Positions 2,852 to 7,570 of a stretch of 55,105 nt of DNA are shown here, in pieces; positions within the stretch are counted from its first letter, which is position 1, and the number at the start of each line of letters is the position of its first letter. The notes under the pieces are model-generated. The model worked only from the letters and a program-made list of their open reading frames with translations. It had not been told where the DNA came from and searched no databases. The stretch is from Actinomycetota bacterium. GTDB lineage: Bacteria; Actinomycetota; Acidimicrobiia; Acidimicrobiales; Ilumatobacteraceae. The DNA is taken from NCBI GenBank assembly GCA_027592925.1, contig JAQCJO010000006.1:1-55105 (forward strand), given 5' to 3'. Position numbers and translations under genes: made by a program.

Positions 2852-4057
2852 ATGCCATCAGCAGTTGCAAAGAAAAAGGCTTTTGCCAAGAAAAAGGCTC
2901 TTGCCAAAAAAAAGCCAATAGCCAAGAAGAAAGCGGATCTCGCGAAGAAAGTTGCTGCGCAGAAAAAGCTCGAATTGGCTAAGAAGCTTGCGGCGAAGAA
3001 GAAGGCTGAACTGGCGAAGAAAGTTGCTGTCCAGAAGAAGGTTGCTGCGCAAAAAGCATTAGCCAAGAAGAAGGCTGAACTGGCGAAGAAAGTTGCTGTC
3101 CAGAAGAAGGTTGCCGCGCAAAAAGCATTAGCCAAGAAGAAGGCTGAACTGGCGAAGAAAGTTGCTGCGCAGAAGAAGCTCGCTGCGCAAAAAGCATTAG
3201 CAAAGAAGAAAGCCGACCTAGCGAAAAAAGTTGCGGCACAAAAGAAGCTTGCTGCCCAGAAAAAGCTCGCTGCGCAAAAAGCGCTTGCCCTGAAAAAGGC
3301 CGAGTTGGCCAAGAAGGCCGCTGCTAAAAAAGCCGCTGCTGCGGCACGCAAAAAGGCATTGCGCGAAAAAGAAGTTGAGCGCAAAAAGATTGCCGCTCAA
3401 CGCAAGAAAGACATGGCGTTACAGCAGAAGATGAAAGCATTGGCAGCGAAAGAGGCTGCCAAGGAAAAGGCACGCGTTGCTGCCGAAAAGTTGGCTCTCA
3501 AAGCAGCACAGGAGGCCGAGAAGGCTCGTCTCCGTGAGGAAAAAGAAGCTGCCCGACTCGCTCTTGCCGCAGAAAAAGAAGCTGCCCGCGAAGCCGCATT
3601 GCGCGCCAAGCGCAAACCAGAGCCGCCGCCGCGCCCACCGATCATCAAAACTGAGTTTGCCGACGGTATTCAGGCGACGAAAGAGTTTGATTTGAAGTTC
3701 TTGTCAGGTCAGCGTGAGTTGATGCTCGAAAAGAAAACCGTGCTCTTGCGTCAGGCTCTGCGTCTTGATGATGAGGCAAACTCGCTGATTCAAGATGCGG
3801 AGATGGGTGATGTGCAATTTGATGAAGAGGGCGGCGAAGGTGACACCATGGTGGTTGAACGCTCTCGCGACCTCATGCTCTCGGCACAGGCTCGGCAGAT
3901 TGTTGAAGAGTTAGATGCTGCACTTGAGCGAATCAAGACTGGCGAGTACGGATATTCCGTACACACCGGTTTAGCGATTCCGCGCGAGCGTCTCAAGGCG
4001 ATTCCGGAAACAACCGAGTCGGTTCTTGAGCGTGTCGGTGGCATCGGCCGTCGATGA
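2852..4057 (+). CDS. Lys/Ala-repeat protein with DksA/TraR-like C-terminus
   Basis: 401 residues with two parts. Residues about 1-260 are almost entirely Lys, Ala, Leu, Glu and Arg, built from tandem copies of a 23-residue unit (AELAKKVAAQKK-like), as in histone H1-like or HU-tail domains, and probably bind nucleic acid. Residues about 265-401 resemble DksA/TraR: a coiled-coil hairpin, then ERIKTGEYGYSVHTGLAIP, which matches the zinc-finger entry. All four zinc cysteines are missing (SVHT replaces the first CxxC and no later CxxC exists). An SD-like GAGAGGG at 2841-2847 supports the ATG at 2852. The position between ileS and lspA matches actinobacterial TraR/DksA genes. Role as an RNA polymerase regulator or nucleoid protein is inferred. 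Confidence 0.8.
   Translation: MPSAVAKKKAFAKKKALAKKKPIAKKKADLAKKVAAQKKLELAKKLAAKKKAELAKKVAVQKKVAAQKALAKKKAELAKKVAVQKKVAAQKALAKKKAELAKKVAAQKKLAAQKALAKKKADLAKKVAAQKKLAAQKKLAAQKALALKKAELAKKAAAKKAAAAARKKALREKEVERKKIAAQRKKDMALQQKMKALAAKEAAKEKARVAAEKLALKAAQEAEKARLREEKEAARLALAAEKEAAREAALRAKRKPEPPPRPPIIKTEFADGIQATKEFDLKFLSGQRELMLEKKTVLLRQALRLDDEANSLIQDAEMGDVQFDEEGGEGDTMVVERSRDLMLSAQARQIVEELDAALERIKTGEYGYSVHTGLAIPRERLKAIPETTESVLERVGGIGRR
3005..3280 (+). repeat. 69-bp coding tandem repeat, four copies
   Basis: Copies begin at 3005, 3074, 3143 and 3212, an exact 69-bp period (23 codons). A diverged copy starts near 2933 and further degenerate Lys/Ala units run to about 3400. The period is a multiple of three, so copy-number change would keep the frame of the DksA-like gene. 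The near identity of the second and third copies suggests recent slippage or recombination. Confidence 0.9.
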
Positions 4058-5518: not shown

Positions 5519-5965
5519 TTAGTGATGTAGTTGTGGCCAAGGCGATGTGCCTTTGGCCGCAGAGGCAATTTTTGCCAACGTGTAATCATCGAGGTGCTCG
5601 CGCATGTGCTCACCAGCAACATTCCAGATCGCGAGCAGTACGCAGTGTCCTTCATGATCGCATGAGCCATCCTGGTGTGGTTTTCCAAAATCACCAAGAC
5701 TGATCGGGCCGTCGGCTGCAGCAATTATTTGTGAGAGCAAGATCTCTTCTGGTGGTCGAGCCAGTGTGTATCCGCCGCCTACGCCACGTTTTGATTTGAC
5801 GAGGCCTGCACCCTTGAGCACCAAAAGAATTTGCTCAAGATAAGGCTGTGGAAGTGCGGTGCGTGTAGCGATGTCGCGCACCGATGTTGGGCCTGGCTCG
5901 CCTTCATGGAGGGCAAGAGAGAGAAGAGCGCGACACGCATAGTCGCCCCGAGTAGATACACGCAC
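5519..5965 (-). CDS. Rrf2-family transcriptional regulator
   Basis: 148-residue winged-helix repressor of the Rrf2/IscR/NsrR family (MRVSTRGDYACRALLSLA start, recognition helix around residues 35-60, wing GVGGGYTLARP). IscR-type Fe-S sites use three Cys. Here C102 and C108 align with the second and third (C-x5-C followed by LLAIW), but the first Cys position is Pro96 and the His after the last Cys is Leu. An ordinary [2Fe-2S] site is therefore incomplete. The start is GTG at 5965, with a TACACT -10 six bases upstream (leaderless). It diverges from the phosphodiesterase gene only 18 bp away, its most likely target besides itself. Confidence 0.9.
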   Translation of the reverse strand: MRVSTRGDYACRALLSLALHEGEPGPTSVRDIATRTALPQPYLEQILLVLKGAGLVKSKRGVGGGYTLARPPEEILLSQIIAAADGPISLGDFGKPHQDGSCDHEGHCVLLAIWNVAGEHMREHLDDYTLAKIASAAKGTSPWPQLHH

Positions 5966-5970
5966 GGTTG

Positions 5971-5977
5971 TAGTGTA
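5971..5977. promoter_or_regulatory. Symmetric -10 box shared by divergent genes
   Basis: TAGTGTA reads TAGTGT on the + strand, 7 nt before the GTG at 5984, and TACACT on the - strand, 6 nt before the GTG at 5965. Both match the TANNNT form seen at other leaderless starts in the window. No convincing -35 is visible on either side. Confidence 0.6.
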
Positions 5978-5983
5978 GATCGC

Positions 5984-7093
5984 GTGTCAGATCCAACGCT
6001 CCCTCAGTATTCGGGGGGTTGTATCTCCAGCATTATCCCAAGCCTGCTCGGGCCACGGGGCACAGATTCGGTTCCTGCATGGATGCCAAAAGCAGTAGAG
6101 GGAGCAAACCAAGTTGTATTGCTCGTCATCGACGGTCTTGGTTGGCATCAACTGCAAAGCAACATTGCGCATGCGCCAACGATTTCTACGATGCAAGGTG
6201 GATTGATCACCACGGTTGCACCATCGACAACGGTGACCGCATTGACGTCGATTACCACGGGTTTGACACCTGGCGAACACGGTCTCATGGGTTATCGCAT
6301 GGACATGGGGCGTCACGTGATGCAGATGTTGCGCTGGGGAGATGAAAAGGGCGACTTGCGCACAACGTATCCGCCAGAGATGGTGCAGCCATGCCCTCCC
6401 TTTATGGGCGCGTCAGTACCGGTGCTGAGCAAAGCCGAACTTGAAGGATCGGCATTTACCGAAGCGCACTTACGTGGTTCTCGTCCGATGGGCTGGAGAT
6501 CTTCGTCGAGCATTGCAGTGCAGGTGGGTCTCTTGTTGCGATCGGGTCAAAAATTTATTTATGCGTATTACGACGGAGTCGACAAGATTGCTCACGAGCG
6601 CGGTTTCGGTGAGTTTTATGAAGCAGAGTTGCGCCAAGCAGATCGGTTGGTTGCAGATGTTCTTGAGCAACTGACACCAGGGAGTGTGTTGATCGTGACG
6701 GCAGATCATGGTCAGGTGCATATCGGTGATGCATCAATAACTCCGCACCGCGATGTACTGGATCAAGTTGCGTATCAGTCTGGCGAGGGCAGGTTTCGAT
6801 GGCTTCACGCACGTAATGGCGCAACCCAGTCGCTTCACGCAACCGCACAGGAACTGTACGGCGACGTTGCTTGGGTCGTCACTCGCGACGAGACGATAGA
6901 CAATGGCTGGTTTGGTCCACGGGTGACCGATGCTGCGTGCAGGCGTCTTGGCGATGTTGCACTTGTGCCGTTTAAGGACGTGAGTTTTCATGAGCCATAT
7001 GACACTGGTCCATATCAGCTGGTTTGCCGACACGGCTCGTTGACAGAAGCAGAAATGCATGTTCCGTTGTTGGCAATTGCCCAACGACCGTGA
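5984..7093 (+). CDS. Alkaline phosphatase superfamily phosphodiesterase
   Basis: 369 residues from GTG 5984. Two-metal hydrolase of the type I phosphodiesterase/nucleotide pyrophosphatase group. Visible metal and nucleophile motifs: VVLLVIDGLGW (metal Asp), APSTTVTALTS (nucleophile Thr region), IVTADHGQVHIGD (metal Asp-His) and a late His in EMHVPLL. No signal peptide or membrane segment is evident, so it is probably cytoplasmic; the substrate is unknown. The frame is open upstream into the Rrf2 gene, but the only plausible early start is GTG 5984, supported by the TAGTGT box seven bases before it. bpa follows after 12 bases. Confidence 0.85.
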   Translation: MSDPTLPQYSGGCISSIIPSLLGPRGTDSVPAWMPKAVEGANQVVLLVIDGLGWHQLQSNIAHAPTISTMQGGLITTVAPSTTVTALTSITTGLTPGEHGLMGYRMDMGRHVMQMLRWGDEKGDLRTTYPPEMVQPCPPFMGASVPVLSKAELEGSAFTEAHLRGSRPMGWRSSSSIAVQVGLLLRSGQKFIYAYYDGVDKIAHERGFGEFYEAELRQADRLVADVLEQLTPGSVLIVTADHGQVHIGDASITPHRDVLDQVAYQSGEGRFRWLHARNGATQSLHATAQELYGDVAWVVTRDETIDNGWFGPRVTDAACRRLGDVALVPFKDVSFHEPYDTGPYQLVCRHGSLTEAEMHVPLLAIAQRP

Positions 7094-7105: not shown

Positions 7106-7570
7106 ATGACTGAAGTAGTGCAAGAAGAAGCCCCAGAAAACCCACCAGTAATTCCAAACGAAACGGTGACAGCACCAGCCAAGGTGATGCGCATCGGTTC
7201 GATGATTAAGCAACTGCTTGACGAAGTGCATTCAATGACGATGGATGGACCGGCACGCGAACGTCTTGCGGAAATTTATGAACGATCTATTGTTGAATTG
7301 ACTGAAGCCCTGTCTCCCGACTTGGCAGAAGAGTTACGGATGTTGTCGCTGCCTTTTCGCGATGGAGTGACACCGTCAGACAGCGAACTACGAGTTGCCA
7401 AGGCCCAATTGGTTGGTTGGCTCGAGGGTCTGTTCCATGGAATACAGGCAACATTGTTTGCGCAGCAACTGGCCGCGAATCAGCAATTAAATCAAATGCG
7501 CCAATTGCCCAGTGGTCCTGGTGGGGCAGAGGCCCCAGAAATCTCGGATCGCCCTGGCACATATCTCTAG
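7106..7570 (+). CDS. bpa: Bacterial proteasome activator Bpa/PafE
   Basis: ATP-independent ring activator that docks on the 20S proteasome and feeds unfolded proteins to it. The 154-residue protein matches the mycobacterial Bpa family (Rv3780): PAKVMRIGSMIKQLLDEV near residue 24, then the four-helix segments including LRVAKAQLVGWLEGLFHGIQ and LFAQQLAANQQLNQMRQ. It ends GTYL, equivalent to the GQYL C-terminus that inserts into proteasome alpha-ring pockets. The N-terminal tail is shorter than in mycobacteria. No proteasome subunit lies in the window, but this gene predicts one elsewhere in the genome. Confidence 0.95.
   Translation: MTEVVQEEAPENPPVIPNETVTAPAKVMRIGSMIKQLLDEVHSMTMDGPARERLAEIYERSIVELTEALSPDLAEELRMLSLPFRDGVTPSDSELRVAKAQLVGWLEGLFHGIQATLFAQQLAANQQLNQMRQLPSGPGGAEAPEISDRPGTYL

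Follow-up and report, generated by a model that had tools for sequence, protein, structure and literature searches.

Can one -10 element serve two divergent genes whose start codons both lie only a few nucleotides away from it? The question is raised by a junction in an Actinomycetota genome of the family Ilumatobacteraceae (GCA_027592925.1, contig JAQCJO010000006.1, positions 1 to 55,105; this whole stretch of 55,105 nt is what we call the window). Here the gene of an Rrf2-family transcriptional regulator (148 aa, 5519..5965, minus strand; PF02082, E-value 8.3e-37) diverges from the gene of a type I phosphodiesterase / nucleotide pyrophosphatase-like protein (369 aa, 5984..7093, plus strand; PF01663, E-value 1.5e-21). 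A sequence-only reading of the junction had pointed to the heptamer TAGTGTA (5971..5977), which reads as TANNNT on both strands, 7 nt before GTG 5984 and 6 nt before GTG 5965, with 18 bp between the two start codons; on direct reading of the sequence, these coordinates are exact and the distance is borne out. The start codons (5984..5986 on the plus strand for the phosphodiesterase; 5963..5965 on the minus strand, written CAC on the plus strand, for Rrf2) have their first bases 19 nt apart. The predicted -10 hexamers are TAGTGT for the phosphodiesterase gene (5971..5976, plus strand) and TACACT for the Rrf2 gene (5972..5977, minus strand), and inside TAGTGTA the T at -7 and the A at -11 of the two are reciprocally paired. 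The heptamer is flanked by two short spacers, GGTTG on the Rrf2 side (5966..5970) and GATCGC on the phosphodiesterase side (5978..5983), and no purine-rich Shine-Dalgarno sequence was seen in the 18 bp on either strand (judged by eye). We argue below that these 18 bp very probably act as a bidirectional promoter whose core is a single symmetric -10 element, from which two leaderless mRNAs would be made.

Both start codons agree with the protein comparisons. Position 1 of the Rrf2 profile TIGR00738 aligns to residue 1 of the product of GTG 5965. The phosphodiesterase is present in 189 of 200 family genomes (the window's own included), and nearly all of the matches listed begin at residues 1–6 of the product of GTG 5984 (exceptions seen are G018, at residue 75, and G089, at residue 19), so that GTG 5984 is a sound start. 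ATG 6082, about 33 codons further in, had been named in the sequence-only reading as a possible real start of this gene; it is ruled out, since the family matches listed cover residues before it.

Several other features of the two genes and their surroundings were recorded. The Rrf2 protein (5519–5965) has a C-x5-C pair, and no third cysteine at the place expected for IscR-type proteins, in which the cluster ligands include a third cysteine. A search of viral contigs with the Rrf2 protein found no relatives. Directly downstream of the phosphodiesterase gene, positions 7106–7570 encode a bacterial proteasome activator (PF10759), and an ORF at 2852–4057 encodes a long lysine/alanine repeat followed by a non-repetitive C-terminal part. 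The phosphodiesterase match in one relative (L029, G017:C62) contains one in-frame TAG stop.

The positions of TANNNT relative to start codons were counted in a sample of 455,105 bp, consisting of the window and 20 stretches of 20 kb (L244–L263) from seven genomes of the genus (with a 2-kb overlap between two of the stretches; L247 holds the same locus in G002). Simple ORF calling, without a trained gene finder, gave 437 ORFs with 1376 candidate starts. TANNNT was found 6 nt before 27 of these starts and 7 nt before 46, with 16, 11 and 10 occurrences at 8, 9 and 10 nt, and a background of 1–6 at 0–5 nt and 0–12 at 11–30 nt. Judging from these counts, the leaderless signature of the window's genus is a TANNNT placed 6–7 nt ahead of the start codon, and the two predicted spacings of the box, 6 nt on the minus strand and 7 nt on the plus strand, both fall at this peak. 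The motif is otherwise rare: TANNNT occurs in the sample at 0.42 of its dinucleotide expectation, as compared to 0.93–1.13 for the other fifteen XYNNNT classes, and among TA-Nk-T patterns with k from 1 to 8 depletion was observed at k = 3 only. TANNNTA is at 0.21 of expectation, with TA-Nk-TA at 0.92–1.43 for k of 1, 2 and 4–7. In coding sequence, 39 copies of TANNNTA were seen versus 398 expected from a synonymous-codon shuffle; this null, in which dinucleotides spanning two codons are not preserved, exaggerates the effect. The depletion of TANNNT and TANNNTA would be best explained by selection against stray -10 boxes. TAGTGTA itself has five copies genome-wide (two of which lie no more than 25 bases from a contig end), where about 32–40 are expected under models of order 1–4 and 2.8 under an order-5 model, which has the rarity of the hexamer built in (all models were derived from the sample).

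The junction was found in 22 of the 23 genomes of the genus, the window's own included (G011, which is 55% complete, is without it; an extra piece, L024, which is a second G018 fragment, was excluded). An alignment with close relatives had been proposed as a check on the heptamer, and it came out clearly in favor of conservation: TAGTGTA is invariant in 22/22 junctions, and so are the eight bases GTAGTGTA made up of a G and the heptamer, while 9 of the 11 spacer columns differ among the same junctions. Numbered with the first base of the heptamer as zero, the variable columns are -5 to -2 (four of the five on the Rrf2 side) and +7, +8, +9, +11 and +12 (five of the six on the phosphodiesterase side). 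The contrast between 0/7 variable heptamer columns and 9/11 variable spacer columns gives a Fisher p of 0.002 when relatedness is ignored; the 22 rows are non-independent, with 20 of them distinct over 90 bases. The core GTG of the heptamer is also invariant (22/22), although TANNNT demands less. The Rrf2 spacing is 6 nt in all 22 junctions. On the other side, the distance from the heptamer to the phosphodiesterase start is 6 nt in 18 genomes, 5 nt in three (G008, G016 and G019, where the first bases of the two start codons are therefore 18 nt apart) and 12 nt in G005.

We compared these junctions with 59 hand-picked junctions from 24 other genera, taken from the family listings of 200 genomes (L114 was dropped because it lies inside another). 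TANNNT was found upstream of Rrf2 in all 59 (47 at 6 nt, 9 at 7 nt and 3 at 8 nt), with two matches in total at the remaining spacings between 0 and 30 nt. Together with the genus, 81/81 junctions thus carry TANNNT 6–8 nt upstream of the Rrf2 start, which, as far as sequence can tell, is a strong sign that Rrf2 has a leaderless promoter across genera. The commonest hexamer outside the genus is TACGAT (33/59), and TACACT is found in 0/59. The phosphodiesterase side is different. Its start could be inferred in 55 of the 59 junctions, 23–222 nt from Rrf2, and TANNNT stands 5–8 nt before the nearest inferred start in only two of the 55 (L077 and L078), so that the phosphodiesterase promoter in the other genera would be of another kind; in 22 of the 55, either such a TANNNT or a T..ACT hexamer (e.g. 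TGGACT) precedes some candidate start. The first T of the heptamer, which is required by the phosphodiesterase hexamer only, is present in 22/22 junctions of the genus versus 8/59 outside (Fisher p of 1.6e-13, relatedness ignored). Three of the 59 (L056, L062 and L064) combine this symmetric T with a start-like codon 4–8 nt further on, with the nearest inferred phosphodiesterase start farther off; in L056, where an upstream in-frame GTG is a candidate start, there may be a shared box. Most of the other genera examined appear to use separate elements for Rrf2 and phosphodiesterase, and the window's genus appears to have replaced both by one box.

The same comparison bears on the alternative that the box is the -10 element of Rrf2 only, with the phosphodiesterase promoter inside or beyond the Rrf2 gene and the plus-strand reading a by-product. 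Such an arrangement would agree with the finding that the Rrf2 half, and not the phosphodiesterase half, recurs across the family sample, and with the broken plus-strand spacing (12 nt) in G005. We nevertheless consider it unlikely, given that the genus fixes a T that is superfluous for the Rrf2 hexamer, that the plus-strand start lies 5–6 nt past the heptamer in 21 of 22 genomes, and that a second locus likewise fixes this T.

This second locus is another divergent pair in the same genome, with the box in the form CAT-N5-TAGTGTA-N6-GTG (C72:1709–1732, equal to L118:1210–1233; one of the five genome-wide TAGTGTA copies) between the genes of a zinc-ribbon protein (71 aa, minus strand, PF09723) and a DUF3039 protein (98 aa, plus strand, PF11238). 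The region was found in 19 of the 23 genus genomes, the window's own included (an extra G005 piece, L138, was excluded), and all 19 have TANNNTA, as TAGTGTA in 17, TAGTCTA in G008 and TAGCCTA in G009. The heptamer is followed by the DUF3039 start at 6 nt in 17 genomes and at 5 nt in two. Since the core is changed in G008 and G009 and T, A, T and A are kept, the constraint at this locus would fall on these four bases. Outside the genus we used the best-scoring 20 loci, from five other genera, and the zinc-ribbon start could be obtained in 19 of them; TANNNT lies 6–7 nt upstream of that start in 19/19, and the symmetric T is present in 19/19 genus genomes versus 1/19 outside. By eye, the DUF3039 start in the other genera is farther away and often preceded by a TTGACT-like hexamer.

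Hexamers resembling TGGACT or TTGACT were in fact often seen shortly before both phosphodiesterase and DUF3039 starts of other genera (L055–L113 and L183–L202), replacing TANNNT. A general leaderless element of the form GGTKGACT was tried for the family and rejected: 48 matches were found versus 41 for the reversed control in 12 genomes at the 6-nt spacing only, which is no clear enrichment.

A second alternative takes TAGTGTA to be mainly an operator, for example for Rrf2, with its likeness to a promoter secondary. A site of this kind might account for seven bases and a preceding G staying invariant in 22 genomes, for a regulator being one of the two genes, and for the identical heptamer recurring at a second divergent pair. 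It fits less well with the altered core at the second pair (GTC or GCC, in two genomes), where T, A, T and A stay constant, with the other genera retaining TANNNT before Rrf2 and yet having TACACT in none of 59 junctions, and with the heptamer being imperfect as an inverted repeat. We regard the operator as quite improbable, somewhat more so than the Rrf2-only element.

Pattern counts were made in the 23 genus genomes for heptamer spacings of 5/6, 5/5 and 6/6 with RTG starts, using the reversed pattern as control. None of the two-sided geometries is enriched: CAY-N5-TANNNTA-N6-RTG (5/6) has 65 sites versus 85 for the control, 5/5 has 20 versus 55, and 6/6 has 13 versus 68. The one-sided pattern TANNNTA-N6-RTG is likewise not enriched in the window, where it is found four times, with 3.23 expected and 43 of 100 shuffles reaching four. 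The missing two-sided enrichment fits the general depletion of TANNNTA, without supporting the shared-box reading. What is beyond chance, from the alignments, is that the box is conserved and that, at two loci, it coincides with the starts of two real genes. That the letters merely look like a promoter and persist by common descent, functionless on one or both strands, is hardly credible: TAGTGTA shows no rarity in the window (one copy seen, 1.43 expected from shuffles), the two-sided counts show no enrichment and the genomes of the genus are related, but neighboring spacer columns differ across the same genomes, identity to the window's phosphodiesterase drops to 60% within the genus, TANNNTA is strongly depleted in the sample, and the arrangement is maintained at the second locus.

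Further pairs were identified by translating the matched sites, covering 30 of the 65 sites of the 5/6 pattern plus the remaining sites of the window's own genome, 12 of the 20 sites of the 5/5 pattern and all 13 of the 6/6 pattern. In the window's own genome, two of the five 5/6 matches have frames of at least 70 aa on both sides, there is no 5/5 match, and the single 6/6 match has frames of 7 and 193 aa. A solute-binding protein / class-III aminotransferase pair was found by translation in seven genomes (Pfam was run on G010 only; the aminotransferase frame of G005 is short, 258 aa), and for G006 and G014 the assignment comes from similarity of the matched string only. Other divergent pairs with a shared box and long frames on both sides are a poly(A)-polymerase/HD protein with a secreted-looking protein without a Pfam match (G005 and G011), Gfo/Idh/MocA with metallo-beta-lactamase-fold proteins (G005, where the box is again TAGTGTA), an amidohydrolase with an ATP-grasp CoA-ligase-like protein (G005), and two lipoprotein-like proteins (G009, by eye). 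Candidates that were rejected include L144 (frames of 142 and 110 aa, of which the latter does not look like a gene on inspection), L240/L242 (a LysR-like protein of 303 aa and only a 52-aa frame) and L227 (frames of 150 and 66 aa); the remaining sites have one frame shorter than 60 aa or lie at a contig end (L219, with frames of 60 and 4). Among the 38 divergent pairs that the simple ORF caller gave for the sample (the window's pair escaped it), a shared box is present in one, namely the Rrf2–phosphodiesterase locus of G002.

The evidence supports the initial reading of one box driving both genes, with both halves appearing to behave as -10 elements, and a simple mechanism may be proposed for it. 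Sigma reads an A at -11 and a T at -7, positions which in TANNNTA coincide across the strands, and RNA polymerase could bind TAGTGTA either way because the A and T read on one strand pair with those of the other strand. In one orientation transcription would start at GTG 5984 and give a leaderless phosphodiesterase mRNA, and in the opposite orientation it would start at GTG 5965 and give a leaderless Rrf2 mRNA; both start sites (5984 and 5965) are predicted from the sequence. If start sites are about 18 bp apart and the mRNAs are leaderless, the start codons must sit at about that distance, and the observed 19 nt between their first bases (18 in three relatives) fits the expected start-site distance only if both mRNAs are leaderless. 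The conservation of T, A, T and A at two loci is consistent with both directions depending on the shared element. A single polymerase would occupy the box at a time, so that the Rrf2 and phosphodiesterase genes would compete, and any block of the box, possibly by Rrf2 itself, would silence both genes; polymerases would thus exclude each other, and Rrf2 may control the pair jointly.

Warman 2021 is said to be the main paper on bidirectional promoters that arise from -10 symmetry. A distance of 7–25 bp between mapped start sites on opposite strands has been used as a criterion for bidirectional promoters. According to Middlemiss 2023 (PMC10268837), promoters of this kind are already known, chromosomal ones lie mostly between divergent genes, and in the commonest arrangement 18 bp separate the start sites, with reciprocal pairing of -7 and -11. 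The box in the window resembles them in its reciprocally overlapping -10 elements and in its expected start sites about 18 bp apart. It differs from what is described there in that both mRNAs are predicted to be leaderless, with the start codons at start-site distance and an intergenic region of 18 bp, and in that the box is conserved across the genus and appears to replace two separate elements. Archaeal bidirectional promoters have also been described (PMC6640164, partial text).

The leaderless side has precedents as well. As in the leaderless genes of M. tuberculosis (PMC3898074) and P. acnes (PMC3848588), both in the portions available, TANNNT lies a few nucleotides before the start, and GTG starts occur; the same portions report no conserved -35 motif for M. 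tuberculosis and one for P. acnes. Closely juxtaposed divergent promoters are described for M. tuberculosis, and so is one divergent pair, prpD and its regulator, with both mRNAs leaderless (PMC3898074), but the accessible text describes no single shared -10 element like the one proposed here. The lysG/lysE system of M. tuberculosis (PMC5648196, partial text) is similar in that a regulator and its target diverge, promoter elements overlap and one start is leaderless; unlike in the window, the intergenic region is 108 bp, leaderless transcription comes only from the second lysE promoter, and the overlap is between -10 and -35 elements rather than within one symmetric -10. No publication on a -10 element common to two leaderless coding starts was found in a search at title and abstract level, with most subscription journals outside its coverage. 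What appears to be new is one conserved box for two leaderless coding starts, apparently replacing two promoters; -10 symmetry and leaderless genes are each known.

Shared boxes were observed at six or more gene pairs of the genus, including two in the window's own genome, and the replacement of separate elements by one box was followed through comparison at two pairs only. A broader reading, on which we are evenly divided, is that the genus has repeatedly fused divergent promoters into one TANNNTA that is leaderless on both sides, with stray TANNNT and TANNNTA purged from the rest of the genome and the gene pairs locked in competition. Genome compaction is suggested as the cause of the fusion. 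The box was not seen at these two loci in the other small-genome genera (g2, g4, g9 and g25, about 1.0–2.5 Mb), so that small genome size alone is not the explanation.

With one element of seven bases and neither gene having an untranslated leader, this may be a near-minimal layout for two divergent protein-coding genes, and it joins -10 symmetry and leaderless translation, which are usually treated apart, in one arrangement. It leads to single-base predictions, by which a change of the first T would affect the phosphodiesterase, a change of the last A would affect Rrf2, and changes of the inner A and T would affect both directions. It further points to a way in which two promoters may merge into one.
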